Shown here piece by piece: positions 5,250-52,400 of a stretch of DNA of 64,000 bases. The notes under the pieces were generated by a model, which worked only from the letters and a program-made list of their open reading frames with translations, was not told the origin of the DNA and made no database searches. The DNA is from Neckera pumila. Lineage: Eukaryota; Streptophyta; Bryopsida; Hypnales; Neckeraceae. The stretch covers positions 10,602,001 through 10,666,000 of the forward strand of contig OZ018415.1 in NCBI GenBank assembly GCA_963969595.1, written 5' to 3'. Position 1 is the first letter of the stretch; each line of letters starts with the position of its first letter. The position numbers and the translations under genes are program-made.

Positions 5250-5258
5250 CTTTGTTTG
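5250..5258. repeat. Left target-site duplication of the MULE (CTTTGTTTG)
   Basis: Nine bases identical to 19261-19269 directly abut the inverted terminal heptamers. A 9-bp duplication is the standard length for Mutator-like elements. Confidence 0.92.
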
Positions 5259-5511
5259 GCAGGACGTTAAATCGTGCCATCCTTTGTGGGCCCGCCTGAC
5301 GTGGCGCACGGGGTCCAGGTTGGGCCCGGCTTGCACGCCGCGACTTGGCCAACCCACAAAGGACAGCCCGATTCTTTGGGAACGTGCGGAGGGCGCTCCC
5401 CGACGCGACGACGATTTCCGCGAACCCGACGGAGGGAATGAACGACGTCTAGCGCGCCTCGACGGGACGGCTTGGGGGCTCACGAATGATGACGGTGAAT
5501 TAATTGCAGGA
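5259..5511 (+). repeat. Left terminal inverted repeat of the MULE
   Basis: It pairs with 18993-19260 over its whole length. By hand alignment I count about 16 mismatches, 14 of them transitions, plus one 15-bp indel present only in the right arm. The GC-rich composition contrasts sharply with the flanks. The inner edge again carries GCAGGA, like the outer edge. Confidence 0.9.
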
Positions 5512-5966
5512 CCTGTTGGTTGTCTTCCAGCTTCCTGCAGTTTTGCTTTTCATTTTCATTTTCGTGCGCGTTTTTGCAGAACCCTCTATAGTCTGTTGTT
5601 CGTCGTTGTTGGGCGCGGTGTTTTACGGTTCGGGCTGAGTATTCACAGCGTTTTGAGATTGCTCTTCTTCGACGGTGCCGCTCTTCACGCTTTTCTTGCT
5701 CTTCTCGCGCTTCTCGCTCTTCTCGCTCTTCTGGCTCTTCTCGCATGCATACGGCGTTTTTCCTGAGGACGTTTTTAGGCCGCACTGTCGGGTAAGGAAG
5801 CCGCCGTTCCTTGCTTGGGAACTTTCCTTTGCATTTTTGGCTTTCCACTTGAGGGTCCGCGTTCTTGTAAACCGCCGTAGGGTCACATACATTTCAATTC
5901 CGTTGTCCGTCATTTCGGTTAGGGTCTCTTCCACTTCAGTTCCGTTGTTTGAGTGATTTTAGATTC
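5512..5966 (+). promoter_or_regulatory. Leader and putative promoter region of the Ulp1-like gene
   Basis: This GC-moderate segment joins the left inverted repeat to the first exon. It contains one GCAGAAC motif at 5576 and a run of CTCTTCTCG-type repeats around 5690-5745. No convincing TATA box is visible. Function is inferred from position only. Confidence 0.35.
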
Positions 5967-8900
5967 ATGCGGGCCGCCTGGATTATTGCACGCCTTGGTA
6001 ATTTAGGGTTCAGGACGGAGGGCGGAATGCCTCGTTCCAGCATTACAGTCTCCGACGACTCCCTATCTGAGAGGGATGGAGATACAAGTGACGACGGAGA
6101 CTCGGAGGAAGAGAGCGGTGACAGCGAGCCAAGTGAAACTGAGTTGTAGAACACCGCACCGAAGAAGTCCGCGGACGCCAAGAAGAAGCCGAAAATGCAA
6201 GCGGCTGGACAGTCAAAGTACCGGAAAGTCATTACGCTAATCGACAATGATGGCAACACGATTTACGCTTACCAGGATCCGGACATGATCCGGTGGCTTG
6301 GTTTGGTCAAGTTCAAGGATATTCTCCGCTTCAGTCCACCCGGGCTCGTAAAAAACGTAAGTAATGCATCTCCTGTTTACGCTTCTGATTATAGGGTTCT
6401 GGGTACGCTTTGTCCTGCATTTTGCTGTTTAGGCTTTGTCATTTATACCAAATGTCGTGGATTACAGAGTTAGGATCCACTGTGTCCTGCACATTCCTAG
6501 AAGCATTGTCCTACATCCCTAATGGCGAAGATTAGCATTTTAGGGTTGTATGTGTCTTGCAATTTCTTCCTGTCGGATGTGCTGCGTATCTATGGTCGCT
6601 GTCCACAGACCGCACTCAGTCTTGGAGGGGCACAGCCCGGCTTTGAGCGTACTGTCTACCAAACTAACTTGTTTCTGCTTTCCGGAGAGTGCAGGTGAAA
6701 GTTGGAGATGCCGGCAACTTGCGCTTGTACAAGAGCAAGATGACGCATTCAAAGAGGCGGGCCGCCTGTCTTTACACGGAGCCGGAGTACGAGAAGCTCA
6801 TCGTGGAGGCGCATGTCACCAACAAGAACCCGGATGCAGAGTGTACCGCGACTGGAAGGAAGCGGTTCTTCTGCATTCACTACCAGATGGAGTGCAAGGA
6901 CAAGAACCGCCTTTCCTGGCATCGGATGACGGGAGAATGTGAAAAGTACCGCGGTGAAGCCTTCCTCAAAATGTATCTGACGTGGTTGAAGGGTGAAGGC
7001 AAAGAGTTGAAGCGGATTCTCCTCAACCAGGGCGCAGCCGAGCCGGTCAGGCAGCCTTCCTTGAAGCGCCGCCGTAGGGAACCAGAAACGTCAGCGCCGA
7101 AAAGAAAACCGAAGGTCCAAGAACAACATGATGCGTCGGCGCCAAAGAAGAAACAGAAGCTCCTAGTCCAGCAAAGCACGGTGCATGACCGCTCTGCGAA
7201 GGACATACCGAAGAACAAAGCCTCAGGCGTGTCCGAGAAGCCGAGGGGAGCACTTCTTCCGGGTGAAACCGACCTCCGCCGGCTTGGGTACAAGCCGAAG
7301 ACGAATCCCTCTCCATCGGAGAAGCGTAGCGACCGGCAGACTAGGTCTGGGTCGCACGCCCGACTGTCGCAGGACACCATGCAGGACACCGCCGTAGATC
7401 CCGCGTCCTGCGTGGATGTGACTCCAGGAGCCGAAGGCAGCAGAGCACCTGGACGAAAGCTTGCAAGTTTGGCTGCACTGGAGGGCACAAGTTCGAAGAA
7501 GACGTTGCGTGATATGACGCTGAAGCAGAACCCGGCCACGAAGACAAAAGAGAAGCCTACAGTAAGCCGTGACGAGGTGGTTATTGAAGCTAAAGCTGTG
7601 GCGGCCAAGTGGACGTTAGAGGGCAAGACCGGGCTGAGGGCAAAGCCGGAGGAAGTGTAGTGGACTGGTGCTGCGCTTATGGTTCATGATAGCGGGTTAG
7701 TGCTCGATTCTGAAGTGCTAAAAGATCCGGAGGCGGCAATGAAGGAACTCCGGCGTATGCATGAAGAAGGCATCCTCGTTAAGAAAATGTACGAGGTCCT
7801 CGGGATGTGGGGTTACCCAAACGATGAAGAGGATCAGGTTTGTCCCCTTCCGATCAAACACTCCGGAGTTCTGTAGTCCTTCGCGTCGTTTTTGTCAGGG
7901 TGCAAAACACTGTCCTGCACTGTCAGCTACTTTTCACCGGGTCTTGCATCTTTTCGCAGGGATTTGCGTTGACCAAATAGATTGTGTATACCTTTGCTAA
8001 CGGACTTTGGTTACTGATTTTCTCTAAGACAGGGCACTAGTACGGTGGAGAAGACTGAAGAATTCCGGATGGAAGTTCGGCGGTCCCTGAAGAAGTTTGA
8101 CCTGAAGTTCTTCAAAGTCGGCGGTTTAGAAGAGTCTGTGGACAAGGGACTCCACGACATCCAGCATTACTTGGAGTTCCGGAATGACATGGACAGGTAT
8201 ACCGTTGAGAAGGAAAAGGCCAAGAAGACTCTGGAGGTTCTGCGGTTTAAGCACGTCGAAGACCGACTTTGGGTATTCGACAATGCAAAGAACCTCGCTG
8301 ATGAGCAACAGCAGTGGCAATGGTCGCCACTGTACATAATGCTGCAAGGCACGCACAAGCGGCGACGGAGAGCTCCCTAGGCTCACACCACGAAGGAGCT
8401 GGACAAAATTCTAGAGGAGTGGACAGCCGAAGACGCACCAGCAGAGTTCTCTCTTGAAAAAGAATGCCCGCAGATTCTCCGAGCGGTGAAGATTATGCTT
8501 TGCCGTGCAGCAGGAAAGGCGGAGCCCTTGGCCCACCCATCTCTAGGGCTTACTTCTGAGAATCTACTAGCTGTTGTTCGAGAGGGATCCACGTCGAAGC
8601 AACTCGTGGCTGCTGCGCTAGATTTTTTACATCACGGTTGGGTGTTCTTCCCAAAGATGTTCAGCAGTACGGAGTCCGTTAATCAGTGCAGGACGGACCT
8701 CCTCGCGCTTTTAGGGTATTCTGGACAGCAAGCCGAGGTCGTTGAGAAGGTCAGAGAGTTCCTCCACCGCGTTTGTTGGGGAGCGTTTCTAGATATGCAG
8801 CGCAATGGGCAGAGGTCTTCCTTGGAGAGTCTGTGGCACGGCAAACCATGTACCGATGTCGACAAGCAAGAATGCCAGAAGGTAAGATTCCAAACTATGT

Positions 8901-11116
8901 TCTACCACTTCCGTTTCCAAGTGGCGGTTTTGTCTTCTGAGGATGACCTTGTCTTTAGGCTTCCGGGTCAGAAAGATTTGTCTTTTTCTCTAACGACTGT
9001 AGTATGTTCTGCATTTTCACCAAGGTTTGTTCTGTCTATTTCCGTGTAGGCCTTTCGGGACATAGTCGCACTTTGTGAAGATATCGACATGGGGTGGGTG
9101 TTTGTGGGAGAAACCACCTATGCGAGTGCCGCCTTCGAAGGTCAAGTTGTCCTGCAAAGATCTGTTCAGGGCATGCAGGACCTTCGCGTTTCAGGACTGC
9201 GCGCAGTCCAGCGTCTTCTGATGCAGTCCCCACGATCGCACCATCCCAAGTTCAAAGAAGCAGGCGATGACACGTCATGACATGGAGAGCAGGAGAACCG
9301 AGAGTTGGGTGAGCAGAGCGTAGGAGAGGGCGAAATCCCGACCGGCACCGAATCCACTTTCCTTCGGGGAATTGAGGGTTACTGTGCGCAGGACATTGTC
9401 ACAACTTCATTAGGAAATGAGGTCCCTGGCAGCGCTGACCAGGGTTCAGAGGAGAAAGTCATCGAGTTGCACATGCGAGAGGTACCATGGGCATGTGCAT
9501 TAGGGGATGGACCAGCGTTTGTTCGCGAGCGGGGAACAATTCTAAAAGGCGATGCAGGGAGTTCTAGGGTGGTAGTGAACAATGACACCACACTGCCGGA
9601 CGTTCCAGACGCAGTGAAGTCCAAGTCCGATGAGAGTGGTCATGCAGGAAAACCTTCCGTAATGGCGGGATCCGACCTTCCACATGACGACGGCGACGAC
9701 CTGCAATCGGTTGAACAGGACACCACTCGCGACCCACATGTCCTTGCAGACGAGGTCACGGAAGACGCGCTTAATGCAGAGCAATGAGACCTGTAGGGCT
9801 ATGTAGTTATGCGGTGTAGACGATGCTCTCGTGTCATGCAGTGGTATGCCACTACAGAATACTATGTCCCGTGGAACATGTTCTGCGTTGGACACTTGTA
9901 TACCTCAATGAACCATGCTTATTCACAGAGTTCATTCCAATCGTATTCTACCGTCTTGCACTCATTGGCTTCATTCTCATCGTGGATTGCATTAGTTTAG
10001 TGTTGCAGTGAATTGCCCAAAGTAACGATTACCTACTTTGTGTTGCAGGCTCGAAGGCGAACTTGACCGCATTGTGGATATGGCAAGTGGGTGTGAGGTG
10101 TTCACGCTGCACTTCAGAGAAGCAAGTCACTCTTGCTCTTTGGCCGTTCCGCGGGACACTCGGGCCCTTTTTGAACGGGATGGGTGGGTTAGTTCTGCTC
10201 TTTTTGATTGGTTCCGCCATTGGTGCTTATTGCAGTACCTTTCTGAGCAATACCTGTTCTGCAGTCCGTTTCTTTTCAGCTCTCTAAAGAAATTCGCAGC
10301 CGGCCAAAAGGAGACGTACAGCCTAATTGAGGAGTTTTTAAGGAAGAAATTTCCACTTGACCGTGATCCCCCCATTTTGGTAGTGCCTGTTGTGGATGCG
10401 GGGCACTAGAGTTTAGCGATCATGACGAGTGAGTCACAGCTATTCCATTTTGATTCACTGCATTCTGCTACATTGCACAACAACACAACTTTATATCGAC
10501 TTCTAGGTAAACTATGGGCTCAGAGATTAGGGATAACTCAGCAAGACAAGAGTTACGGTTATGCTGTTGACCGGCGTTCTTGGAAGTGGCTGTCAGTGCC
10601 GGTGTAGAGTGACATGTGGGAGTGCGGATATTGGACCATGAAGTACGCCTTGACATGCATCCGACAATGCTGTAAGGGAGCACTTAGTGCGTCAAAGGTA
10701 TGTGATTCTAACGAGAAGTTTACCACTGGACATTTCCTCTTACATTCGCAGGACACGCGTTGAAGTGTGTAAGGCTGTTTCAGGGGTCGAAGCGGTTGAC
10801 GGAGGATGGTGGGATCCAGATGTGGGACTGGGTTAAGAGAACTCTGTACCAAGTCCTGTGCAGCGTGCACGGTCTCGATGCTCAGTGGCAGGTATTCCTT
10901 AGCCCCGCTAAACCAAGATGTAGTATTGCAGAGTAGGACGCCGACGATTCCAAATGCGAACTCCTGGAACACGGTCCGCTTGCAGGTGGCGATTCCCTAG
11001 TGACCTCCATTAGCGCCTACGAAGGTTCCTGGAGTGCAAAAGGAGTAGAACATACCCGCAGTGTGTAGAGGTTGTCCCCGAGGAAGATCGATTACGCAAG
11101 TTCTTGAATTATTTGG
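5967..11116 (+). pseudogene. Ulp1/SENP-like (C48) cysteine-protease gene of the MULE, broken by nonsense codons
   Basis: Five exons fit in phase: 5967-6356, 6695-7837, 8033-8881, from 9050, and 10049-10697. Further coding pieces reach about 11116. The first part is acidic with a Ser/Asp/Glu-rich tract, followed by a Cys/His-containing block near 6760-6960 and a long Lys/Arg-rich region. The C-terminal exon has the Ulp1 arrangement: His (10404-10406, in DAGH), Asp (10452-10454, in HFDS) and Cys (10623-10625, in ECGYW). The spacings of 16 and 57 residues suit the family. Such enzymes cleave SUMO or related conjugates. In-frame stops lie at 6147, 7658, 8378, 9278, 10407 and 10605. The stop at 10407 falls where the family normally has Trp after the catalytic His. 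The intact splice sites indicate a recently functional gene. The middle domains resemble nothing I recognise. Confidence 0.75.
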
Positions 11117-13186
11117 TAAGCTTTTAGATCTATGGTAGCTCTGAAGTCGTGCAGCTGTAAATTAGGCCCAAGTATATTGGGATAGGGTTCTGCTTCAACA
11201 GTATGGCATGCAAAAATTCATGCACTGAGTTCATTCCAGTGCAGTACTGCAGTTGGTGGACCCCCCGGAGACGTCGTCGTGAAGTAACACTGGGGGCTAT
11301 ATATATGCTACTTTTAGGTCCTCACGCTCCTATCGGGGTTTAGGGTCACATTTCAGTTTGTACTCCGGCTTGGACAACACAGTGGATGAACTCCACTTCT
11401 GTTAATTATATTGTTAATTATATTATGTTCTGCCAATTAAATTGTGCTGCGCATTAGGATTCCCCTCGGCACCAATAGGAGCCTCCAAGCAACGTTTTTT
11501 AGTTTTCTAAAATATTTGGTTCCAATTTTTTTTCTTAACATTTTATTTATTTATCTTGTAGTTTTCTTAATGCTTCAAAGCTCCGCGTTGCGCCGAGAGT
11601 GCCCCTACAATGCAGCGTGGAGTCCCCCTATTTAAAAAAAATAAAAAAATAAAAAAATAAAAATTTATAGCAAAATGTATCCCATCCCAATTTTTAAAAA
11701 ATTAAAAAAAACTATCAAAAAAAATGGGTAGCCAAATGTATGCCCTCCCAAATTTTAAAAAATTAAAAAAAAAAAAAAAATTGGTAGCAAGATGTATCCC
11801 CTCCGAAGTTTAAAAAAAAAAAAAAAAGTAGCAAAATGTATTACCTCCCAATTCTTAAAAAATTAAAAAAAAATTAAAAAAAAATAGGTAGCAAAATTTA
11901 TCCCGTCCCCCTTGCATTCCATCTTGGCGCCAAGGGGAGCTTCCAATGCCAAAAACATAACAAATCATAATAATTCTTCTAATGTTTAGATTTTATTTTA
12001 TGTGCTTAGGAGCTCCTACTGGCCTTGATGGAAGGCATGCAGTTAGACTTCAGTCATAACCAATACACAATAATAGGTACAAAAATTTACCAAATATCAT
12101 AAACTTTGATCTAATTTTTTGGATGGAAATCTAGAAAATGAAATGTGATTTGTAGCGGATTATGATCTTCAATAACTAAGGCGACCAAAATTGCAAGACA
12201 AAATTTCTAAGTGTACTTGTACATTTATTTATCTTCTTTCCAAAATGATAAAAAGGTAGAAAATGTACCATAATTTTGGAAAAATTTGGATGCATGAATT
12301 TAAACTTTGTCATTATAATGTTGATTTTTTTTTCAAATTTTTTTTTTCTTATATTCTTTTTCCTATATGTTGTTCATTTCTAAATGACTTGAAATGTCCA
12401 CCCTATGTAGCGAACTTTCCATAATGAATCACAATAAGGGTACCCCCACGCAGGACCTTTCTTTATATATATGTGACTTTATGCAACTGCCCACTTTTCA
12501 TTGGGATTGTCTCTATTTTTTTTTAAAAACAGACGCTATTAGCTTGCAATGTGCAAGTTGGAAAGTTCAGATATCTCTTCCCGATCTTCTCAAAACAGTT
12601 TACTACAAGATCCTATGGGTTCTGTGTGTTCTCGACGTTTTAAATTTTTCCCGAATTGCACCCTTTTACATTCGCATGACAATGTTGTAGGAATTTTGGT
12701 GAAAACATAGTCAGCATTTTAAAAAAAGTTACTGGCATGTATAATCCATTATCAATTTGTATAGTAAGCTTCTATATGAAACAGAAAACCGCCTAACATC
12801 ACTTCAGTGTGTGTTCTGCATGACAAAGGTGACCTTGACCCCTGAGGAAAGCAGTGGCAGTAGAGCACTGGCTACAAAATCAGACAAGGGATACGGTGGA
12901 ACCCACACACAACACTTAATCTCCCAAAAACGGGATTGAGAGAATAAATCCACTATTGTATCGAAATGCAGATAACAAAATGTTCACTCAGTCCATGTTC
13001 TGCAGTGCCTAGTCTTCTTGGACAAATCCAAAGAAGAAGGTTAATATGCAACAAAAAGAGGACCACATGAATGCATCAGTTTACAGTTCATGCTCTAACG
13101 TATGTCCATGCATGTGTTGCACACTGTGAGCAGAACTACACACAATGTTCTGCACATATAGTTCAGGAAGTCCTGCGCCAGTAGGG
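11117..13186. other. AT-rich centre of the MULE between the two convergent genes
   Basis: No gene is recognisable here. The segment holds two small inverted-repeat units around 11455-11616 and 11919-12041, a tandem repeat between them, and long A/T runs. Six copies of the GTYCTGC motif (11427, 12450, 12813, 12997, 13147, 13170) show that the segment belongs to the element. It probably contains the 3' ends of both transcripts, but no polyadenylation signal can be assigned with confidence. Confidence 0.5.
11455..12041. repeat. Tandem repeat flanked by two small GCATT...AATGC inverted-repeat units
   Basis: About four to five copies of a roughly 60-bp unit occupy 11665-11910. Each copy contains GTAGCAAAATGTATCCC-like text followed by TTAAAAAATTAAAAA. 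On either side are short units with matching inverse ends: 11455-11616 opens GCATTAGG and closes with its inverse, and 11919-12041 opens TTGCATTCCATC and closes GATGGAAGGCATGC. They look like MITE copies of one family with an amplified interior. Confidence 0.45.
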
Positions 13187-16100
13187 TTATTTCTTAGGAG
13201 TCCTCGTACGTGAAGCCTTCCTGCTTTTCGACTCCAAGAAACTACGGTACCTCTTCAGCGAGTTGTCCCCCGGAGTCCCCTCAAAAACCCGTGAGCTCAA
13301 GTTCTCTTCAACTCCAGCGAGGCCCCGGGCTACAAGTTCGATTTGCTTTCCCCTCGCGTTCTTCAGGTCTGCAAGGAGGAAGTCAAAGAGCCGAGGGTGT
13401 TCTGCTGCGCCGTCAACTAGAGCATCAAACAATTTTTCCGTCGTAACCTTAGGATTCTGAACTTTTTGAATGGCCTCGGCACCAGTGTGCAGAACGTTTA
13501 CTGCGCAATTCTTTAATACCCGGTCATCTATGGCAGTGGCGTTCTCAAGCTCCGGGAACATGTTCTGCATTGTTTCGGACGCCTCTTGACGTGGATGAAA
13601 GCACTAGGACAGCGGAATCTCCTTCTCCACTCCGTACGAAGTACCGGCCTCTCTGACAAGAAGTCCATCTGAAACCTCCGGGTGTAGGAGATGGAACACT
13701 TTCATTGTATGTTTGTAGATCATGCCCTGCAGTCCAACAGGACAGTCACATTGGACCCACTCTGAATCAGGTCCGAAGATGGTCCAAACCTTAAGAGCGT
13801 GGTTGATGGAGCTAACAACCGCGATGTCCTTCCCGTCCGGGTAGATAGTCACTGCCGAATCCGGAATGGTTTTGGCCCGGACTATCGCAGTGGCAACAAT
13901 CCCCTCCTGGTTCTTATTCCGCACGAACCCATAGACCTTGCACTGCACTGCGTATCAATAATGGGTGCACACATCTCCCACAAGATGGAAAATGAGCCAA
14001 TCTAATCTTCTACCATCAAACCGTTCGCGGGAGGACTTCAAAATGCTTTTCAAGTTCTCGTGGTAGGACTCGATAGCAGCATTCATGTTCTGCCCTGCGT
14101 GTGGAATCGTCCGGTTGCTCACGCACCACATTCCTGCCTTATTCCGCTAGTGTTTTTTCATGTAGTTCATGAAGGTGGCAGCATTTGGGCGTTCTTTAGA
14201 AAGGGTGTCAAGTGCCTGCTGCGCCCAGAGGACAAGATCGCAATCCACCGGCAGTCCTTTGCCGTACATGATGTCACCAATCGCGTTCAGCACATACGCC
14301 CGCTCTCCAATAGTCGAAATTTTCTTCACCGCATTCTCTTTCCAGGCCTTCCGAACATGCTAGAGGCACAGAAAAATTGCACAGTGCGGCCAAATTGTCC
14401 TGCATAATCCTTATCATCTTAAACATTGGCATCCGGTTTTCAGGAGTTATACGCTTGAGCTCAAAGAATTTTCCAGAGTCCACCCTAAATTGAAAATACA
14501 TAATACTTAAATGCCGCGTGCTTTCAGTTTCAGGTGGTGGTCCTGCACATGTACCTAAGGATGTCCTGTCGTACATGGCTATGTACAGCCGAGTACGACT
14601 GAAGCTACGTGGACATTGACAATTCTTCCTAAGATGAGAGTGTATCCATAACTAAAACCGGGCGGAAGTACCTGAGCACATTTATCTCAGCTTGAGCATT
14701 GTCGACGATAATTGATGTCGGAGACCAGGACCGGTGGTCTTTAAGTACTCGATTCTACAACTCTTGGAGAACATACCGCAGGTCCTGCTCTCGGCACAGG
14801 GAGATGACAAAGAATGCGACTGGAATTCCGTTTCTCCACTCATTAAAAACCATCACCGTGTACAAGGGGTACTGCAGTCCATGCTCATTGTCAGATCATC
14901 TCATATTGTCTATTTCTTCTAGCTCTATGTGGAGGGGAAAACTTCTTTCGAGTTTTAACCCTGGAAGTAATGATGCAGAACCCAGAAACTTCATTATAAT
15001 TAGAGTTGTCTACCGGAATCAAAGCATTTGGAAGTGCTTGAGAGTAGTGAGGCGCACCCGAGTAACGGATGTGCCAAACGTGGCATCAATGGAGAGTGCG
15101 CTGTTGTGATCGCACTTCGCAAGCATCTCCAACTGCCATGGAGTTTGTATCCCTAGAGTGAATGGTGTATTGTCCTACTTCTTTTCATTCAGATCTAGGA
15201 GGCCATGTTCTCGGTAGCAGAACACTGAGTCTGGGTTCTCGTCAACCCACATCTTCACGCTTCTGGGATCACTGGCATGCCTCTGCCAAAGCGCTTTGTC
15301 TCTCGTTTTGGCGAGGTTTTGGACGTCCTGTGCCTGCAGGAATGTGTCCCTACTAACCTTGCCGCTCTCTGCTGCCAAGTTCTTCACAAACGTCTTATGC
15401 TGTTGCATGACCTGGGAAAAGGACAGGACCAAGCCAGAGAAGGTTCGTCAGGTGTTTCTTCATCTCGTCTAAAAGCGCAGAACCCAGATTATCCTTGAAT
15501 TCGGGAACCCGGACTACGTGAACAACATGACCTTCTTTGTTGGTATGGTGGGAATGGCGGTAAATGATCTGGCAGATTTCTGGGTCCTGGTATAGCTGCT
15601 TGGCAAAGAAGCAGCATTGGCATCCTCGTTTTATTGATCTTCCGGATTGCTTCTTACCAATTCTCTTCCGCTTTCCTTGACTCAGTTGTGTAGTAGGAAA
15701 AACATCATACTCAGGAACTACCTTCTTGCCTCTCCGTTTACCCATGCTATTCTCTGCAGCCTTCTTTCTTTTCTTAGTTGATGAGTCCAAAACTGCTTGG
15801 ACGTCTTGTGGCACGACTTCAGAGTGGTTTTGCGGCCCAAAGCAGCAGTGGTATCTGTAGTATCAGTGCAAACGAGGATGCAAATGTCAATCAGTGAAAC
15901 CAGACCGAAGTTTTGAACAATTACTCCTGCTTAATCATGGAGAGCCAGTGTGCATGTTGCCCTATCAAGGTGGCCACAGATTGCATGAATTTGTTTGGTG
16001 ACTTGCAGGACAGAACCTTCGCACCTTTGCAAGTTGGATACCCTAATTCTTAAGCCGACATGTTGGGTAAGAGTTTCCAGTTGCACTTACCGGATAATTT

Positions 16101-16452
16101 GGGAAGCGGAGTAAGCCTGTGGTCTGGCTAATGACCCTGCGGCATTTTTCTTCTTTACGTGGCAGTTGAAGGTAGCTGGGTATTCGGGGTTCTGTTGCTG
16201 CCCTTCGACAAAATCTTCTAATCATTCCCAGGGAATGGCTGCAATTTCGGAGATGACGACGGAACGATTGCCAGTGGTCTCATGCGGAATCCAAACGAGG
16301 TCAGCGTACCTGATGAGGCCTAATTTTGAGTACTGCACCATGTCCTGCATTTCTCGAACGAGCTCCGCCTCGCGCTCCGGGTCATAAGCTCCAGCTGCCT
16401 CTTGCTTCTCCTCCTCAGATGCTGATGATTCGAAGTCATCGGTGGACTCCAT
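13187..16452 (-). pseudogene. MULE transposase (DDE plus SWIM zinc finger), inactivated
   Basis: The start chosen is the ATG at 16450-16452, opening an acidic N-terminus; the first exon ends at a GTAAGT donor near 16091. A Lys-rich stretch and a Cys/His block (GCQCCFFAKQ ... YRHSHHTNKEGH, about 15600-15510) follow. The MULE catalytic core has Asp in SIDATFGT (15085-15087), Asp in IIVDNAQAEIN (14701-14703) and Glu in MNAAIESYHENLK (14069-14071). A SWIM finger follows, with CDC at 13742-13750 and its final CxH at 13709-13717. Here the Cys is replaced by Tyr through a single transition. An extra C-terminal domain ends at 13187. In-frame stops are at 16222, 15175, 14755, about 13967 and 13604. 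A frame change near 15430 may be an indel or an unrecognised intron. Several introns are likely but not all could be placed. Confidence 0.8.
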
Positions 16453-17283
16453 GATCGCCGTCGAGGAAGTACCATGAAATTTGGAAGACACGACACGCAC
16501 TCCGATGGCAGGACGCCCGCACGAAGGAGACACTGAACTCTAAATTCCGCTGTGTTTTGCACTGTTGCTCTCGTGACATGCAGGTCGGTGTTGCGAAGCA
16601 TGTGTAATACGTTGACTACGTAGTATACCTCCTCTGTACAATCATCTAAGTAGGCGTAGCACGGATTGCATGACACGCTCTAAATCCTACCTAAAGAGAT
16701 AATATAATCAAATAGTCCCTGCGAATGTGTGCAGTCCACTGCGAACATGCGCCAAAATAGGAAAACGGCAAAGCGGCAACAGTAGCGCCGGCAAATATCC
16801 ATGAGCGGCCCCGAAACCCTAAACCGCCGGCGCCAACAGAATTATGGGTGTGATATAGGAAATCAAGTAAACCTAAAATCGCATGCAGAACATTCCCGAC
16901 ATTTTCAACGGTCTGCTCATTGTGGTTGCAAAATACATTCATCATTTTTATTTCAAGTGGAACAGAAAAATGCCTAAAGCACAGCAGTTGTGAAACCCCA
17001 CTTCGTGAGTGTCGCAATCGGAATTTTTAGTTTTTTCTGATTGTCTAAATAATGGAACGGAAACAGGTAATTAGGATCCGTATCCAGTTAGAGGGGCAGA
17101 AGGAAACTAGGGATAGGCAACGCTAATCCAGTAAGGAGAAAACTGTATTTGATCCGGTCAGAATGTTAGTATTCAGGAGCGGAATCACATCCGGATCTCA
17201 CCTCAGATCGGATTAGGATTGGACCGGATCAATAGAGAACCAGACCGAAAAAGGTCATGATGACCTGCCAGGGGTCCTGAGAC

Positions 17284-17291
17284 TATATAAA
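17284..17291 (+). promoter_or_regulatory. TATA box (TATATAAA)
   Basis: A consensus TATATAAA is followed by a pyrimidine-rich stretch, about 280 bp before the ORF at 17566. A second TATATAAG lies at 17941-17948 after the ORF. These are sequence matches only; transcription is inferred. Confidence 0.4.
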
Positions 17292-17565
17292 GGCTGGTCG
17301 TCCTCATTTTCACTTCTTTACTCCCCTCGAGCTCTGGAGCTGACCATGAGCGCTTTTACGCCTCCGTCCGCGCCAGAGCCATTGTATGTATGTGCGCTTC
17401 CGGCTGGGCAGGTCTGAGAGTGTAGAAAGAGTAAAGAACGTGTGGGTTGCAGGTTTTGTGTGTACTTTCCGGTTGAGATCGGATGAGAGGAAGTGAGGAA
17501 CGAGACGTGCGGCTAGGAGAGAGTGAGGTAGCGATCGGTAAGGGTCCAGCGGTCGTCTACTGTCC

Positions 17566-17880
17566 ATGCCTCAGCTGCGTAAGACCAGACCGGGCGCGCC
17601 CAGTTCCTCCTCCGACGTCAAGCTCCGGAAGATAGTTCCGGTCATTCCTATAGAAGAACCGGCCCGGACTGAGCTCATGGAGGACCTCAACACCATGGGG
17701 TGCCTAGTCCTGATGGATAAACCCTGGGGGTTTCGGGAGGAGCGGATGGTTAGGGAGATCAAGTGTAAGATGTCGAACGAGTTCGACAATACTCTCCGGG
17801 GCCGCCCGACCGAATGGGAAGAAGAAAGGTGGAGGGAAGTTTACAACTTCCGGATGGGAGGTTCCAGTCTGGCCGGTTAG
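17566..17880 (+). CDS. Small unidentified ORF in the motif-free segment of the MULE
   Basis: The 104-residue frame starts at an ATG in a TATA-preceded region. The protein has a basic, Ser-rich N-terminus, a central KIVPVIPIEEPART stretch and a C-terminal EWEEERWREVYNFRMGG segment ending in SSLAG. The C-terminal part has the look of a conserved domain start, and the frame may be a 5' exon or a truncated gene. I do not recognise the family. It may be a captured host exon or part of another element's gag-like protein. Confidence 0.35.
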   Translation: MPQLRKTRPGAPSSSSDVKLRKIVPVIPIEEPARTELMEDLNTMGCLVLMDKPWGFREERMVREIKCKMSNEFDNTLRGRPTEWEEERWREVYNFRMGGSSLAG

Positions 17881-18992
17881 GATCGGACCCGGATGTCCAG
17901 CGTGGATTTCTGAGGGCCTTTTTGGTTTGTAACCAAGTTGTATATAAGTCAGCCCCTGCTTGGGAGCTGGGAGTTTTTTCACCTCATTTTCGCGTACGTC
18001 TTCTCTTGGCCTCTTGTTGCGTGTCTCTCCGGTGTGCGGCAGGGTTGTGTGGTGAGGAGTTAGGAAGGCGCATGCTAGTGTGGGTGAGATTTCTCCCTTT
18101 GGCGTTCTTGTTTTGATCTTATGTGCAGGTGAGCGGGTTGCGAAAGTGTTGGGAGTGGATTCCAGTTCCTTAGCAGCTCTAAAGTTTAGGATTCCGGGCG
18201 AGACAGCCGTTGTTAGGCTAGGAGGATAGGGAGGGATTCCTTAGTCGTGCTAGAACTCCTGGGTGGTAAATCCAGTTGAGTGTCCAATCTCCTGAGAGAT
18301 CTCGCTACCTCAGTGGGCAAACGGAAGGACTTTAGTGGATGTTGGAACGGACGGGTTCACTTGCAACCGCCTGGCTTTGCACAGACGGAACGTGGCGCTA
18401 AGGTCGTTGTAGTATGGAAGGATCGTACGGGGGGTCCTTGTGTGACCGGTGATCCAAGGAGTTTTTTGGATTGCTGTGAAGGATCAAACCGGGTCCAGGT
18501 TAGTGTAGAGAATTGGGGTAGGACGAAGTGGGTCTTCAGCCACTATAATTCACGGAAGGAGCGGCGGGCCTGCCACTCTCAAAAACAAGGGGCAAACCCT
18601 CTGATGGTGAAACAGAGGTAAAACTAAACCGGATGGTAGTAAGAGCGGATGTGAGTTGATCAGACCAGATCGGAAAGTAAACCGGATCGGAGAAGGAGAA
18701 GAGGGTCTGATTATAGTTCTTGGTGTTGTTGTATTTCCGGTTGTTATGTTTGAACCGGAAGAGGAAATATACGTACTGACTTAGCTTAGAGACTAAATAA
18801 GGCTATCTACTTCACAGAATCTCGTGGGTTCGATCTTTAGAGTCACTTTGTTATACTTTAAAGTGGTTTTTGGTAGTATAACTGGGAAATTGCTTGCCTT
18901 GTGCTGCGACAGTGAGGAAGGACGACGACGCTGATTTTTGGCAGTATGTCATGGAGCAGTTGGAAATGCAGAACGTCTGCTTGCATTCGACT

Positions 18993-19260
18993 TCCTGCAA
19001 TAAATTCACCGTCATCATTTGTGAACCTCCAAGCCGTCCCGTCGAGGCGCGCTGGACATCGTTCATTCCCTCCGTTGGGGTCCTCTCCGTCGGGTTTGCG
19101 GAAATCGTCGTCGCGTCAGGGAGCGCCCTCCGCACGTTCCCAAAGAATCGGGCTGTCCTTTGTGGGTCGGCCAAGCCGCGACGTGCAGGCCGGGCCCGAC
19201 CTGGACCCCGCGCGCCACGTCAGGCGGGCCCTCAAAGGATGGCACGATTTAATGTCCTGC
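18993..19260 (-). repeat. Right terminal inverted repeat of the MULE
   Basis: This is the inverse of 5259-5511, ending in GTCCTGC at the insertion site. It contains a 15-bp indel (near 19070-19085) relative to the left arm, apparently a short duplication around CGGAG. Confidence 0.9.
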
Positions 19261-19269
19261 CTTTGTTTG
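19261..19269. repeat. Right target-site duplication of the MULE (CTTTGTTTG)
   Basis: Identical to 5250-5258 and directly adjacent to the terminal GTCCTGC. Confidence 0.92.
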
Positions 19270-21562: not shown

Positions 21563-24500
21563 ATGACTACTTCAACTTCTTCTGTTGCTAAATCTACGAC
21601 TATTCCGGTGGCTGCTACTATTATTGAGCCACCAAGGCTTCAGCCTCTGCTTTTTACACAACTGGCAACTGACGAGAGCAATTATTTGTTATGGGCGAAG
21701 ACTGTCAAAGCACATATATTTGTTGAGGGACTATCAGAAGCTATTGTTTTTGACACTATTTCTACTGTAAGTGCCACTGCTCCTGCAGCTACAATTCCTA
21801 TCGTTCCTGCTGTCACTGTTTCTGCTTCCACTTCTTGGAAAGCTTTACTTTTGCTCCGTCGCCATGTCGTTCCTGCTTTACAACATCAATACTTAGAGAT
21901 AGAAAAAACACATGAGCTTTGGCAGAAGTTCAAAGCTCGTTTTGACCATCAAAAAACGATGTTTCTTCCTAGGGCTTTCCACGATTGGACGCATTTACGA
22001 GTATTGGATTTTCCAACACTTGTTGCTTTCAACAATTAATTGTATCCCATCATATCGCAATTAAGATTATGTGGTCAAACCATTACCGAACAAGAAATGA
22101 TTGAGAAAACTCTCTCAACATTTCCACCCGTTTCTGCTATACTTGCCCAGCAATATAGAAACATGAAATTTGAGAATCACTCAGATCTCATGTCTCTGTT
22201 ACTTCTTGCTGAAAAGCAAAACGAGATCCTTCTACGCAATGCAGAAGCCCACCCTATTGGAACTACAATTCCTGAGTCCCATGCTGTCAAGGTTTCTAAT
22301 GTTAAACCTAGGACACATAAATTTAAGAAACATCCTTATAAACAGTCTGGTAGTCACAGTCATGCGTACAAGAAGAATACCAATTCTTCTTCTAACAACC
22401 ATAATAAGCATCAATCAGAGACGCGTATTTGCCACAAATGTGGTAGAGTTGGCCATTTGGCAAATGTTTGCCGTACATCAGATTATTTTGTCAAGATATT
22501 CCAAGAAAACAAGAAACTTCAAGCTTAAGGTCGTGAAACTCATACCATGGATGCGTCTATGGACTCATATGGAGCTGAAGATTTTGAAACACATGTTGCT
22601 GAGGATACCTCTATTGGTGAGTCTTGTGATGCGCTCCTTGACTCTGCAATTACACATACTATCTTGCAGAATAAACAATTTTTTAATGTTGACAATCTTT
22701 CAACTTGGCAAACCAGAAATTTAATAACTATGGCTGGATCGTATGTGTTTCGTTTCCAGGAGGGATCTGCAAAGGTGATTTTGCCTGAGGGCACTACCAT
22801 AACATGCATGTGTGCTATGTTTTCTCCCTCTGCGCCTCAAAGCCTGATCAGCTATCGAGATATCCGCTCCAATGGTTTTCATCTCTCGACCAAAACTTTA
22901 GATAGTTGAGAGGCTCTGGTTTTTGTACAAAACAATAAAGTAGTGGAAACAAACTTTGCTGCGGCAAGTGGCTTGTATTGGATTCCAATCTGACCACCAG
23001 TTGTATCTAGTTTTGCTTTATCTTCTAAAGATAATAAAATTTCACTGTGGCATGGAAGACTTGGTCATCTAGGCTCCATTTTATTTCGAAAAATTCTTCC
23101 AACTGTTCTTAGTCATAATTTACAACCCGCTAATGTAAATTCCATGACACTTTGCCAAGCATGTGTACAAGGCAAATTGATTGCCAAACCATCTATATGG
23201 AAGCTACCCAGTAAGTTACCACCTATGCTTTCGAGACTGCATAGTGATATTTGTGGTCCAATAACACCTATGTCTGGACCATTCCAATATTTTTTTATTT
23301 TGGTTGATGCATCAGGCAGACAATCTCATGTTTCTTTATTATCAACTAGAAATTTGGCCTTTGCCAACTTACTTTCAAAGCTTATTCGGTTCAAGGCTCA
23401 TTTTCCTGATTACCCAATCAAAATGCTTCGCATGGATAATGTCCAAGACTCCCAATCCAAATCTTTTGAAGATTATTGTACTGCCACTGGGGTTGATTTG
23501 ACATATTCAGTGCCGTATGAACATGCTCAAAATGGATTGGCAGAGTCCTTTATCAAGCGAATCCAACTTATTACGAGGCCTTTGCTTTTACATACAAATT
23601 TGCCCGCATACCTGTGGGGACATGCAGTTCTACATCCTGCAACTTTAATTCGACTTTGTCTTTCATTTGTCGAGATTGTTTCTTCACAAGAACTTCTTTC
23701 AGGACGTGCTCCAAACGTATCCCATTTGCGAGTATTTGGATGCCGTGTTTGGGTTCCAGTTGCAGAACCTCAATGTCATACTATTGGCGCTCATCGCCAA
23801 GAAGGCATCTATGTTGGATTCGATTCTCCCAGCATTATTCGTTATATTAATCCTTCTACTGGTACATTACTTCGTGCGCGTTTTGCCAACTGTCGTTTTG
23901 AAGAAGACATATTTCCATCTTTGAAAGAAACAACCTCTATTCAAGAAACTCCTACTAGTCTCACTTTTCAAGCTCCTCAAACATTTACTTCAAATCCTGA
24001 TCCACGGACATCTTTGACAGAAAACAAAGTTGCTAAGATTCTGTATTTGCAAAAGATTACAGATCAGACACCTGATGGATTCAATGACGCACCAAGAATC
24101 ACTAAAACTCCATTGAATGAGGCTCGAAATCTTCTTGCACGAGTTATTTTTCCAAAAACAACAACCATTCCTACTCTTCAATCTATGGGCAAATGAACTC
24201 GTGGACCAGATAAACAACCACGCAAACGCATGACAACATTTGATGTTGCTAGTCCTTCTCTACCTATACCAACCACTGCAAATTTTACTCATCCATCTAC
24301 ATCTAAAGAAGAAATATCTAAGGTAAACACAGAATTATCTGTACTGTACTGCGGTACTGGTCAAGTATGGGACAGAGCAAGTATTGACATAGATGAACCA
24401 TTCATTTCTATGATTGTAGAAAATCTTTCTTGTGAAAAAGATGATCCTGAGCCACGTACTGTTGAAGATGCGATGAATCGCTCTGATTAGCTCAAGTGGA

Positions 24501-38206: not shown

Positions 38207-39582
38207 TGACTATGTTTTCACCCAAAACGCTCAAAAATTGCCATTTTTAGAACAAGTACCAAATTTTTGAAAAAAAACAACATTTGACACATGTGACCCT
38301 AGGATCTTGTAGCATGCTGACTTGAAAACATGTGGTAAAAATTTCAGAAATTTTCACCGTGTGGATTGCAAGATACATGCATTCAAATTCACGTGAAGTC
38401 ATTTTTTTAACCATGCAAAAAATAGGGCAGCTGCACTTCACAAGCTCACTTTTTTATGAAAATGTCCGAATGGTGGTGCTTCTTTGGATTCTTTTTTCTA
38501 AACAAATTTGCCACATGCGTGAAAAATTTCACATCATTTGGAGTTGTACAAGATGCAAAAAAATTAGTAAGTAGAAAGAAGTAGAGATTGATTCAAAATA
38601 TAAAATTGTTAAGAATTTAATTCTAGTTGATGTAGTGTTGGATGGTTGTAAGAAACACTTAACGATTTTGGCTCAAAACAACCTTAGTACTAGAGTACTG
38701 CAACTTTTGTAATAATAATTTTTTTTAATAAATTGTATTCTCTGCATGTGCGCAAAGGTAGTGCACTTTGAGCACATGTGGAAGGTGGACATTTCACGAT
38801 TTTTGAAAAATCTCTTTGTAGGCTTGTGTAACTTCAATAGAATTCATTGTCTTCCAATTTTCACCTTCAAATTTGTATATTTGGGTTTGAAATAGTATTA
38901 AAACCCTCCAAAATGGCCAAGGTAGACATCCAATCAGGGATAGTTTAAAAATCGTATAATAATTTTAAAAAATTCAAAAAAATTACTCAATGTTTGAAAT
39001 ACTAAATGTACCTTTATTTTAGATTTCATAGGAAATAGACATAAGACACAAAAGTTATGAGCAAAAAAATACCTATCCAAGGCCAAGGGAACAAAAAAAA
39101 GAACAAGTGATTCTTACAATGACCTTGTTGTAATAAACAATACATCCTATGATATTATTTTTTCAAAACATATTGAAAATTGACTAACATAAAGGACTTC
39201 AAACTTTATTTTAGAATAGAGAATCCATAATTGCCCACAAACAAAAAAGCATGATAACTTTTGACTCATCGATGAAAATGGAATGATTCAAAGCTTTCCA
39301 CATATATATAATTCTAGAGAACCAATTTCAAACTTTCATTTTTGAAAAAAGTGATTTTTTCTGGTCTGCCCAAAGTGCCCGAGTTGAGAAACAAACTACA
39401 TTTCATGCAATAACTTTCGACTTATATTTCCAAATGTCATCAACTTTGGTGCATGTGAAAGATATTCCTTGTCCTACCTTCTATTAAAATTTGGGCCAAA
39501 AATATAGAAACTTCTCGTCACATGTACCTACCTTAAATTTCTATGTCGCCAAAAAAACGCATGTTGGTCCTTTAGGGGTTAA
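38207..39582. mobile_element. TTAA-family element E, left end missing
   Basis: The right end reads GGTCCTTTAGGGG at about 39566-39578, with TTAA at 39579-39582. The left end starts inside the family terminus at the ACTATGTTTTCACC word. 38207-38600 and 39160-39578 match, in inverse, the two halves of element D (55407-56340). The middle part, 38640-39120, matches elements F and 1830-2340. It is therefore a longer version from which D could arise by internal deletion. Confidence 0.6.
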
Positions 39583-49451: not shown

Positions 49452-52400
49452 TCAACTGTTCGTATGTTCTCCGTAGGCAGCGCTGTGCTGAGAGATCAAT
49501 TTCTGCGAAGGTTCGTGATATGGATCTGAATGTTGGACTACGAAGTCATAGTACTTTAACCCTTCTTCATACCGCTCGGCTTTAGCAAAAGCCTTCACTA
49601 ACACAGCATATGTTACAATGTCAGCAATGAAGCCTGCGGCCTCCATGTGCTTCAGCAACTTTTCGGCTTCGTCACACAGCCCTGCTTTCCCATACGCCTC
49701 CATTAGTGTTGTGTAGCTTTGAGTGTCCGGTTCCACTCCACAATCTTGCATCTCTTCAAATGTCTTCAATGCCGCCTGGACACCACAAACGAAGGCGTCT
49801 CTTTAGAAGCAGCCTGATACCATGTTGAAATATATTTAACACAGATGAACTGATGAAGTGGCACTTGCCAACCAACCATACAAGAGATAATCAGTGATAT
49901 GCTCAAGAGTATCTCCTTCACTCACCAAGCTACAATTATACTATACCCAGGAGTTTCCTACATGCCATAGAACGTGTAGGAACTTACTGGACTCATGGTA
50001 GAGCGACTAGTAGTTTAGTCCTTAGTCCTCGGTGCTCTTGCTACCTTGGTCCACAGACCCTTGGTTGATTAAATTACCAAGAACTAACTTGATTCCAAAA
50101 CTCCCAGTTGGCTAAGTCCCAATTATACATACATCTTTGCTGGTGGTATGTGATACTCCTATTACTGAAATCACTCCTGCTCTATTGCCCAGGTTTTGAA
50201 ATATAAATTATGTCTCAATACAACATAATTCCGGAACTTGGACACATTCCTACCCGACAGTACCTAATCATAATTACTAGGTGAGCTGAGAATTAAATTA
50301 AGGTGTGTAACCCCCAAACCGCCACTTTTCGCTACTTTTCGTTACTGTGCCTCATTATTATTACTATTATTAGACTGGTCAACTTTTCATATTTTCTTGT
50401 TGACAAGTGAAAGGAGGTTGAAATGAGGTTCCAACGCACCAAAGAACGCAACAATTGGGTACCGTATAAAAAATTAAGAAAAGTTACAAAGGGTCAAAGT
50501 TTTTTTGGTAGGTGTTCTAAAATGGTTTCTTCAACATACGTACATCTTTGGAGATGGACATAAAATGGTTTATTCAACATCCGTACATATTTTGGAGATG
50601 GACACAGAGTGATGATGGCGGTTTTAGGCAGGGTGCGAGTTTGGGTGTACCCACCTTACTGAAGACGGTCTGAAAAATTCCAACTATTGCTGTATTTGAC
50701 ATCCCTGAATATCATTTCCAATCAAACCAGCCCAGCAGCACCGAAATCAATACCTTGTACATGCCGTGGTGACTGTAGCTGTTAATCAATCCACAATAGG
50801 CAGTTGCATTTGGGACGCACCCGGCAGCCCGCATCTCAACCCAGACGCTCTCTGCTTCTTCGAAGTGTCCCAGTCGCCCATACATGTTGATTAAGGCACT
50901 GAAACTGACAAGATTAGGCGAGTGTCCAGCGGCTTTCAGATCCACGAAAATCTGCATAGCTTCACTTAAACTGCTAGCTTTGCCGGCAGCATCAAGTAAT
51001 ATGTTATAAGTCCAAAGATCAGGTGTGCAGCCTGCCAGCTTCATGCTTCTCAAGAGCTCTCTACCTTTTGCTCTCCTACCCCACTTGCTGTAGGCATCTA
51101 GCATTGTATTGTAAGTTACCTGCACAAGCCACCAATAGTATCTCCATTCAATGCTGGAGCATAGATGAAACCAATGTAGGTTAAATGATGCTGGTGCCGA
51201 TTGACTTCTCATTCAATCTCCCAGAACATTCACTTTGAGAGTAGGGAAGTTGAAGATACCCTATCTGGAGTGCAACCCTTGCGTTGCATTCCAAAAAAGA
51301 CGCCTTCAGCCTCCGCAAAAAGACCACCCCGACCGCACATATCAATAACGGTATTGTACGTGCACAGATCAGGCATACACCCTTCATCTTCCATTCCTAC
51401 AAACAAACCCATAGCCTTCTCATAGCGCCCCTCCCGAGCATACGCCTTCAGCAGCGAGTTATATGTCCACGAATTAGGTGAACGTCCAAGCTCCTTCATT
51501 TCCTCAAAAAGCTCTACCGCTTCTTCTAGCCTCCCAGACCTTCCCAGTGAATTGATCATAGCAGTGTAGGATATTACGTTGGGTAAACAGTTCACAGCCT
51601 TCATCTCCTTCAATATTTCACTCGCAGTGTCAAAGAGCCTTTGGCAGACACATGCATTCACCATGCAGTTGTAGGTAATGTCATTCGGTTGAACCCCAGC
51701 CCGTTTCATCTCTTCAAAGAGCCCTACTAAGTCTGGTAGTCTATAGCCTCTCTTGGTACAAGCAATTATAAGCGCGTTGTATGTTAGAATGTTTGGGGAG
51801 AAACCCTTCTGTTTCATGACTTCAAACAAATCCCATGCCTCTTTAAGGAGACCTTGCTTTGCATACCTGCCAAAAACGCAGAGCCCAGATTACTGAGTGT
51901 ATTTGTCAGTGACTTTGTGATAGCTACTAAATAGTAATCGATACCAACAGTAAATCTGCCTTCACTCATTAATTGATTATCAATTACAATACTCACATTG
52001 ATGGCACAAGGGAGAACCCTGGGTGATGCAAACCTACCCACTCAGCAAAGAAGTGTAAGAATGGACGGAGGGTGTAATGCCAGATTTTGTCATTCCTTCA
52101 AATATCTCCCTAGCAAGTCCCAACTTTCCTTCACGCCCTAGAATGGATATAAGAGTTACGCAGTTATGTTCTTTCAACTCAAACTCATGATTATTTTGTA
52201 AGAACCGGAACACTTGAAGAGCTTGTCTCCGCGCTCCTCGAATTTCAAGCTCCTTCATCATCTGCCAAAGATGTTTCTTGCTTAGGCTTCAGGTTTCCGA
52301 AATTAGGAAACTGATGGATTCACATAGAAGCACAAATGACCAATTTACCTGATCCCAGTAGGTACTCCGATCCCCAAACGATTCTAAGGCCCTCTGGAGC

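Follow-up and report, generated by a model that had tools for sequence, protein, structure and literature searches.

Sequence-specific anti-silencing by transposons has so far been detailed for the VANDAL elements of Arabidopsis. The VANC21 motif is YAGTATTAY and the VANC6 motifs are AGTTGTCC and AGTTGTAC, and VANC motifs sit in non-coding DNA as tandem repeats. VANDALs are termed non-TIR MULEs in two papers, and one VANDAL21 paper mentions TIRs. TIR-MULEs such as MuDR combine a MULE transposase with TIRs and a 9-bp TSD, and we know of no dispersed terminal heptamer in MuDR. Repeated short sites also occur in the subterminal DNA of Ac, to which Spm with its TnpA is a similar case. The Ac transposase binds repeated AAACGG hexamers that lie in the terminal ~200 bp (PMC3260210). 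Some VANC genes, named KIU (Kaonashi), carry a Ulp1 domain and are described in a 2026 review as acting on motifs of their own group (PMC13317346).

Here we describe a Mutator-like DNA transposon in a 64,000-nucleotide stretch of Neckera pumila DNA (the window). It shares the transposase, TIRs and 9-bp TSD of TIR-MULEs such as MuDR. Like the VANDAL/VANC system, it belongs to the Mutator superfamily, has a short, partly degenerate, element-specific repeated motif and carries extra genes beside the transposase; unlike it, the motif is the terminus itself and is scattered singly, exons included, and the TIRs are long, although the non-TIR criterion is itself not clear-cut. As in the KIU genes, a MULE gene has a ULP1-like end, here a putative one recognized by eye, but it begins with a zinc-finger-like segment. 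From both VANC and KIU genes it also differs in DUF1985, for which no match was found in the accessory pieces of the window copy and of copy L047 (E up to 1 or 10), where decay or divergence could hide it. With Ac and Spm it has in common a short site in many copies, which a protein of the element recognizes in Ac and putatively also here, whereas its sites lie along the whole body and not only in subterminal DNA.

Results

The window copy (5259..19260), a DNA transposon of the Mutator type that has long TIRs and a 9-bp TSD, spans 14,002 bp, or ~12.1 kb once a later nested insertion is subtracted. The TSD CTTTGTTTG is perfect on both sides (5250..5258 and 19261..19269, + strand). The termini are exactly GCAGGAC and GTCCTGC: the left TIR (5259..5512, + strand) starts with GCAGGAC and carries GCAGGAC again on its inner margin (5506), and the right TIR (18993..19260, - strand) has GTCCTGC as its last letters. 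TIR lengths are 254-269 bp here, with arms of 177 and 90 bp that are 94% and 91% complementary. Ten further genome copies, selected for having both TIRs, were aligned with the window copy, so that paired TIRs are present in all eleven; the TSD is exact in 9 of the 11, with a single mismatch in one and a shift of one base in the other. One scan each of viral and genome contig collections returned no relatives. The window copy is dead, and its in-frame stops mean that it cannot make its own proteins.

Two gene regions were recognized. The accessory gene region (5967..11116, + strand, limits from the first reading), which we infer to be one spliced gene, comprises a zinc-finger-like N-terminal part, an uncharacterised middle and a ULP1-like C-terminal part, and the blocks used (6689-7849, 8036-8959, 9050-9787, 10125-10226 and 10281-10700) hold six stop codons, one of them at a block end. 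Its first part is 47% identical to the homologue P0024, and a homologue search with the middle part gave no match. In the zinc-finger-like Cys/His segment (6872..6940, + strand) the second Cys is replaced in the window copy; P0024 and L047 show CxxC...H.....C, and a PDB comparison gave weak C2H2 finger matches (best E 0.084 and 0.055). The ULP1-like protease region (10125..10700, + strand) was recognized from a His-Asp-Gln-Cys arrangement read by eye and had no Pfam or PDB sequence match; the arrangement is readable in L047, although a stop interrupts it between Asp and Gln and a second stop follows the Cys. Two fold predictions, one of them of the ULP1-like part, gave no usable structure (pLDDT 36 and 37). 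The MULE transposase gene (13189..16452, - strand) is spliced and decayed: the blocks used for it contain six stops, and its frame shifts near 15429. Its pieced read-through matched PF10551 (E 2.7e-9, 37.8 bits vs a cut-off of 27.6), single reading frames on their own giving no MULE domain match, and the relatives P0001-P0018 are 46-52% identical.

A count on both strands gave 44 GTYCTGC/GCAGRAC sites in 5259-19260 and 4 in the remaining 49,998 bases (3825, 23762, 26350 and 52558). The first bases of the exact sites in the element are 5259, 5506, 5576, 6412, 6484, 7369, 7381, 7405, 7525, 7912, 8237, 8688, 9006, 9149, 9175, 9388, 9880, 10192, 10256, 10748, 11187, 11427, 12450, 12813, 12997, 13130, 13147, 13170, 13399, 13489, 13562, 14087, 14397, 14540, 14782, 14975, 15217, 15477, 16005, 16342, 16508, 16885, 18968 and 19254. 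The initial annotation had given 40 copies in the element and about three in the other 50 kb, had equated the dispersed motif with the exact terminal heptamer, and had placed it in exons, introns and spacer on both strands; the full count raises both numbers slightly, and the site mapping bears out the rest. The enrichment stands against shuffles that keep the element's dinucleotide counts exactly (mean 3.7, sd 2.0, max 11; n=1000) and against Markov simulations of orders 1 to 4 (means 4.0, 6.0, 9.3 and 14.7), the top count at order 4 being 27 (n=200), and the rest of the window holds 4 motifs vs 6.8 in shuffles (n=200). In an unbiased scan of heptamers in which no more than one position was two-fold degenerate, GTYCTGC ranked first (43 vs 5.4 in the element core). 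Position 3 is C in 22 sites and T in 22, and other single-base variants of either motif form occur at most 7 times each vs ~1 to 4 expected, a few GTCCTGC variants being moderately commoner than expected. High z-scores alone are also reached in other stretches by heptamers that are simple or tandem.

The ten other copies carry 41-54 motifs each (per-copy shuffle means 3.2-4.7, max 11; n=200 per copy) vs 3 in 11,026 bp of their flanks, so none lacks the internal motif, and the motifs fall mostly at the same aligned places. Alignment of the 11 copies gives 68 sites in total, of which 57 occur in over half of the copies, and the majority letters of the alignment give 59 motifs vs 6.2 expected; in the ancestral 12-kb element the ~57 shared sites are ~215 bp apart on average. 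At either end, 9 of the 11 copies have an intact terminal site, decay affecting a single terminus in four copies. Fifteen sites decayed in the window copy (6146, 6508, 6554, 7183, 7868, 7902, 7941, 9313, 9854, 10541, 10853, 10933, 11045, 15172 and 15827) are kept in at least 5 of the 11 aligned copies, with 10541 carried by 5, and site 13399, present in 2 of the 11, was probably gained later. Most losses reflect C-to-T decay, chiefly at C4 and G6, and such decay within CTG would predict CHG methylation. Position 3 does not follow this pattern: across the 57 shared sites it is C only at 25, T only at 28 and mixed at 4, and since the base is fixed at 53 of the 57, the Y reflects tolerated degeneracy and not decay. 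In dead copies 75.9% of motif sites are intact, compared with 74.7% and 71.4% for two sets of controls; the motif thus decays there like matched sequence, with no current constraint visible, and the ancestral sequence and the sister family C3b, described below, are what suggest a constraint on it.

In coding blocks of the window copy, 18 motifs were found vs 5.2 by synonymous shuffling, and in the open frames of another copy 23 vs 6.8, with none of 2000 shuffles reaching the observed number in either case; the initial proposal that coding sequence was shaped by the motif agrees with these figures. Codon bias or recurrent dipeptides could in principle generate such a pattern, and several coding sites do read Gln-Asp or Gln-Asn, but 36 of the 57 shared sites lie outside coding blocks (21 within them), and both ordinary and synonymous shuffles fall far short of the observed counts. 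With shuffles, Markov models to order 4 and synonymous-codon shuffles all ruling it out, an artefact of composition or coding deserves practically no credence.

Sense and antisense counts in the two gene regions are 15/14 and 5/8, and this strand balance disfavours an RNA-level signal. Spacing is random-like along the whole element (CV 0.88 vs 0.98 for random placement), which contradicts even, nucleosome-like phasing, and no dyads or fixed-spacing pairs are evident by eye in the site list. The sites might have arisen by the spread of a repeat unit or by a mutational process (duplication, nested repeats or sequence-specific mutation) instead of selection at single sites, given that VANC targets build up through tandem-repeat formation and that a few two-copy repeats of 18-30 bases (D4, D9, D10 and pair I3) include the motif. 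We consider this very improbable, as the tandem arrays found in the element carry no motif, the site flanks are unlike one another (best 13/24 matches, mean 6.3) and exonic sites fall in different reading frames. The flanks do show a preference for T at -1 (23/42 sites, p 5e-4) and, more weakly, for A at -2 (18/42, p 0.01); otherwise unrelated flanks with such a preference are as for a putative binding site. A at +7 was not significant vs the base usually following TGC.

Among five sampled relatives, strong enrichment is confined to C3b, a sister family 65% identical to the element where alignable, which has accessory and ULP1-like parts. GTYCTGC tops its own heptamer scan (20 vs 3.3; none of 500 shuffles reaches 20), and its right terminus, the only one seen, is GTCCTGC. 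Of the 15 internal sites that align, C3b keeps 5, compared with 190 of 3182 control 7-mers, in a small test that is somewhat generous to the motif because the control uses the decayed window copy. This retention in one diverged sister family and the positions shared among the copies support the initial reading. In C11 and C4d the transposase is present and no accessory gene was detected in the 15 and 14 kb fetched, which may reflect truncation, or divergence of the accessory gene beyond recognition. C11 has a weak excess of motifs (6 vs 1.8 expected) and no visible site retention (1 site kept of the 9 that align, compared with 11% for controls), and C4d has 0 motifs; the top heptamer of C4d was rejected as a dispersed motif, being mainly a local minisatellite with 8 of 11 copies within 7234-7334. 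L054, a 4-kb piece of a relative that is too short to judge the accessory gene, has 0 motifs, and L061 ends in ATCCTGC. The association between accessory gene and motif is drawn from four families. Relatives are located at C1:23164538-23208802, C7:22120053-22158446 and C11:4564697.

Discussion

From these comparisons, GTYCTGC is well supported as a self-recognition word of the element. Its reader could be a host activator or chromatin protein, exploited by an element that lacks a reader of its own, and a short motif could fit such a factor. The motif, however, is scarce in the rest of the window and in the copy flanks, coincides with the element's own termini and is strongly enriched in C3b alone among the relatives, which makes a host factor decidedly unlikely. 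The transposase, rather than the accessory protein, is a less improbable reader, though still an unlikely one: the terminal heptamer would be a cleavage-proximal site, and the internal copies would concentrate or titrate the transposase like overgrown Ac or Spm subterminal repeats. The motif stands at both exact ends and recurs on the inner margin of the left TIR, C3b and L061 terminate in GTCCTGC and ATCCTGC, the transposase has an N-terminal part that might also act as reader, and the binding of hexamers by the Ac transposase offers a precedent. Against this, the sites are element-wide with random-like spacing and not subterminal, dozens of internal sites would presumably rival the ends, and C11 and C4d have a similar transposase, no detected accessory gene and no strong enrichment.

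Our preferred reading, with a probability of about 0.52, is that the zinc-finger/ULP1-like protein of the element reads GTYCTGC in a VANC-like anti-silencing system; we infer the reader, and the anti-silencing role is, by analogy with VANC, the most likely one. GTYCTGC would serve as a DNA-level self-recognition word of the transposon lineage, with the product of the + strand accessory gene, as putative reader, most likely binding the ~57 sites plus both termini. Such dense self-labelling would set the element apart from host DNA, and binding would most likely keep off or remove silencing chromatin element-wide, much as VANC acts on VANDALs. The motif bound at the ends may also aid assembly of the transposase complex. 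The odds are about even for the full proposal, in which a TIR-MULE lineage repeats its terminal heptamer ~57 times, also in exons, as a tag that addresses its own zinc-finger/ULP1-like protein, so that one word would serve end recognition and element-wide anti-silencing. The word would have evolved site by site and been kept across families ~35% diverged, and it is weak or absent in families with no accessory gene detected.

The initial annotation had proposed a parallel to the VANDAL system in a TIR-MULE of a different type. The identity of motif and terminus, the exonic sites and the lack of motif-bearing tandem arrays set the element apart from VANDALs, but the system is not wholly unlike the Arabidopsis case, because the + strand gene region ends ULP1-like, as in some VANC (KIU) genes. 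What is new relative to VANC systems is a motif that is the terminus, is dispersed and is present in coding DNA. A second system of other architecture, if true, would suggest that transposons generally use short words to mark themselves, and would open to test whether a single word serves end recognition plus chromatin control. As an example of a DNA word imposed on coding sequence, the element is unusually clear among eukaryotes and comparable with bacterial uptake sequences, and a new protein that reads 7 bp could find use in epigenome editing.

The element also contains repeat DNA of other kinds. An AT-rich block (11480..12760), present in all ten other aligned copies and carrying one motif, includes repeat DNA that recurs at 38207-38622 and 55906-56326. 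The nested insertion is a dispersed repeat (17004..18911, limits to ~10 bases) that carries 0 motifs and is missing from all ten other aligned copies, and DNA 76-89% similar to it occurs at L058, L053 and L057.

Structure of the element and its genes

The stretch at 5259-19260 (14,002 bp) is a Mutator-like DNA transposon with terminal inverted repeats (TIRs) of 254-269 bp, the termini GCAGGAC...GTCCTGC and the target site duplication (TSD) CTTTGTTTG. A spliced MULE transposase gene lies on the minus strand at about 13189-16452 (PF10551, E 2.7e-9 on a pieced reading), and its relatives P0001-P0018 are 46-52% identical. The long accessory gene region is on the plus strand at about 5967-11116. 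Its first part holds a zinc-finger-like Cys/His segment and has one homologue (P0024, 47% identical), a homologue search with its middle found none, and its end resembles a ULP1 protease when read by eye, with no match to the library models; we infer that these parts belong to one gene. Stop codons are present in both genes, and the window copy is therefore dead.

Enrichment of the terminal motif

By exhaustive count, the heptamer of both termini, GTYCTGC/GCAGRAC, occurs at 44 sites in the element and 4 in the remainder of the 64-kb window; the initial annotation had seen the same imbalance with slightly lower numbers (40 and about three). The enrichment persisted after dinucleotide correction, as shuffles of the element gave a mean of 3.7 sites and a maximum of 11 in 1000, and the 4 sites outside fell below a shuffled mean of 6.8. 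Even a fourth-order Markov model of the element, a background that already holds much of GTYCTGC itself, gave 14.7 sites (maximum 27 in 200). In a ranking of heptamers that allowed no more than one two-fold degenerate position, run on the element minus two motif-poor blocks, GTYCTGC came first (43 vs. 5.4 expected), and its remaining one-base variants occurred at most 7 times each. One-base variants of GTTCTGC were near background, and some of GTCCTGC exceeded it two- to four-fold, a pattern expected from decayed sites. The z-scores call for caution, since elsewhere in the window simple or tandem heptamers reach values of 8 to 13.

One motif-poor stretch is a nested insertion of a dispersed repeat (about 17004-18911), found in the window copy alone among 11 aligned, in which 1,900 bp hold no motif against about 7 expected at the core density of 4 per kb. 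Its relatives (76-89% identity) occur within or next to two further MULE relatives (L058; L053 and L057). An AT-rich block common to all copies has 1 motif in 1,280 bp. An AT-rich repeat occurs inside the MULE at 12348-12713, in a version shared by the element copies that contains GTYCTGC, and at 38207-38622 and 55906-56326 in versions without it.

Conservation and decay among copies

The left TIR was searched against 339.5 Mb on 18 contigs (40 of 162 candidates scored), giving at least 44 matches, including at least about 15 pairs of facing TIRs with the window's own counted. Ten other pairs were sampled, and none lacked the internal motif: each copy carries 41-54, vs. 3 in 11,026 bp of copy flanks. 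With the window copy included, exact 9-bp TSDs were present in 9 of 11, and the left and the right terminal motif were each intact in 9 of 11. The copies are 93-96% identical and hence not independent of one another. The positions are largely shared: at 57 of 68 aligned motif positions most of the copies that align have the motif, and the majority letters of the alignment contain 59 motifs against 6.2 expected. The motif set is ancestral to the family. Family copies are clustered at C6:22716664-22779423, three with identical transposase search scores, which suggests a recent segmental duplication.

Site losses are mostly C4-to-T or G6-to-A, the CHG site within the motif. Across the alignment of 11, cytosine change per copy was 7-9% at CAG/CTG and CG, 6% at CCG and 1-3% in most other contexts; such strong C-to-T decay at CG and CAG/CTG is a trace that CG and CHG methylation would leave in this host. 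After insertion the motif stayed intact in 75.9% of cases, compared with 74.7% and 71.4% in two matched control sets, and since it decays like matched sequence, the copies are not under constraint.

Sites are spaced at a mean of 215 bp with random-like variation and are balanced in orientation with respect to each gene (15/14 and 5/8). The third base is constant within a site, C at 25 and T at 28, with 4 mixed. Past the two adjacent bases the flanks bear no relation to each other; the sites therefore did not spread within a longer repeat unit. Coding blocks contain 21 of the 57 sites, and the proposal that coding sequence was shaped by the motif gained support from synonymous-codon shuffling, with 18 motifs vs. 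5.2 in the window (maximum 12 of 2000) and 23 vs. 6.8 (maximum 15) in the open frames of another copy (L047/L048), which may take in some intron bases at their edges. The left TIR has the motif not just at its outer end but also at its inner edge (5506-5512); the counterpart in the right TIR of this copy misses it by one base.

Diverged relatives

Diverged transposases came up in a protein search (82 of 113 candidates scored), and parts of five relatives were taken. C3b (C3:7193500-7208500), 65% identical to the element where alignable, ends in GTCCTGC at its right terminus, the sole end within the stretch taken. It has 20 motifs (shuffled mean 3.0; 20 reached in 0 of 500), and GTYCTGC again ranked first in its own unbiased scan (20 vs. 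3.3). Among 15 internal family sites that align to C3b, 5 keep the motif and another 4 are a single transition (C-to-T or G-to-A) away from it. Of the control heptamers, 190 of 3182 were kept, a figure somewhat understated because the control uses the decayed window copy. Thirteen of its 20 motifs are in DNA without alignment to the family. The accessory middle and ULP1-like parts are present in C3b, and 2-3 kb upstream of the stretch there is a zinc-finger part (C3:7190480-7191563).

Two further relatives, C11 and C4d, have the transposase, and no accessory gene was detectable in 15 kb and 14 kb, respectively. In 9.1 kb, C11 has 6 motifs against 1.8 expected (6 reached in 4 of 500 shuffles), and of its 9 aligned sites 1 is kept, which does not exceed the control rate (11%); C4d has none vs. 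2.0 expected in 14 kb. The 4-kb piece of L054 has no motif, where three family copies have 12-16 in pieces of that size. L061 (2.1 kb) carries 2 motifs and terminates in ATCCTGC, with zinc-finger matches 34-40 kb away. A GACGGAGG minisatellite lies at C4:16736633-16736739 (C4d 7234-7340), in a related MULE without GTYCTGC.

Proposed reader of the motif

We propose a factor that would read double-stranded DNA in either orientation, both at single sites throughout the whole element and at its termini, to the element's benefit. The simplest answer would be a reader encoded by the element. The accessory protein is the best fit, since in the four families that can be judged strong enrichment and the accessory gene go together; alternatively, the transposase itself may be the reader. 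The likeliest benefit would be escape from silencing, by analogy with VANC, the anti-silencing proteins of Arabidopsis VANDAL MULEs, and with the ULP1-bearing VANC genes.

According to the literature on VANC and Ac (PMC5735166, PMC10398659, PMC6446971, PMC13317346, PMC3260210), VANC binds its own element specifically through a short motif, and methylation is lost over the whole element; ULP1-bearing VANC genes are also described (PMC13317346). VANC motifs are located in non-coding tandem repeats, whereas the sites here are non-tandem and 21 of 57 fall in coding blocks. Ac hexamers are described as lying in the terminal 200 bp (PMC3260210), in contrast to GTYCTGC, which runs along the whole element. 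Searches of open-licence PubMed Central literature turned up no description of a MULE with its terminal motif scattered through its body, the key primary paper on ULP1-bearing VANC being outside the results.

Other features in the window

Two adjoining PPR-repeat frames at 50712-51829 on the minus strand are possibly an interrupted pentatricopeptide-repeat gene. PPR repeats, together with the kinds of transposon present, point to a plant host. An LTR retrotransposon integrase region lies at 23144-24196 on the plus strand, with an SH3-like domain at E 2.4e-12 and rve under the cut-off.
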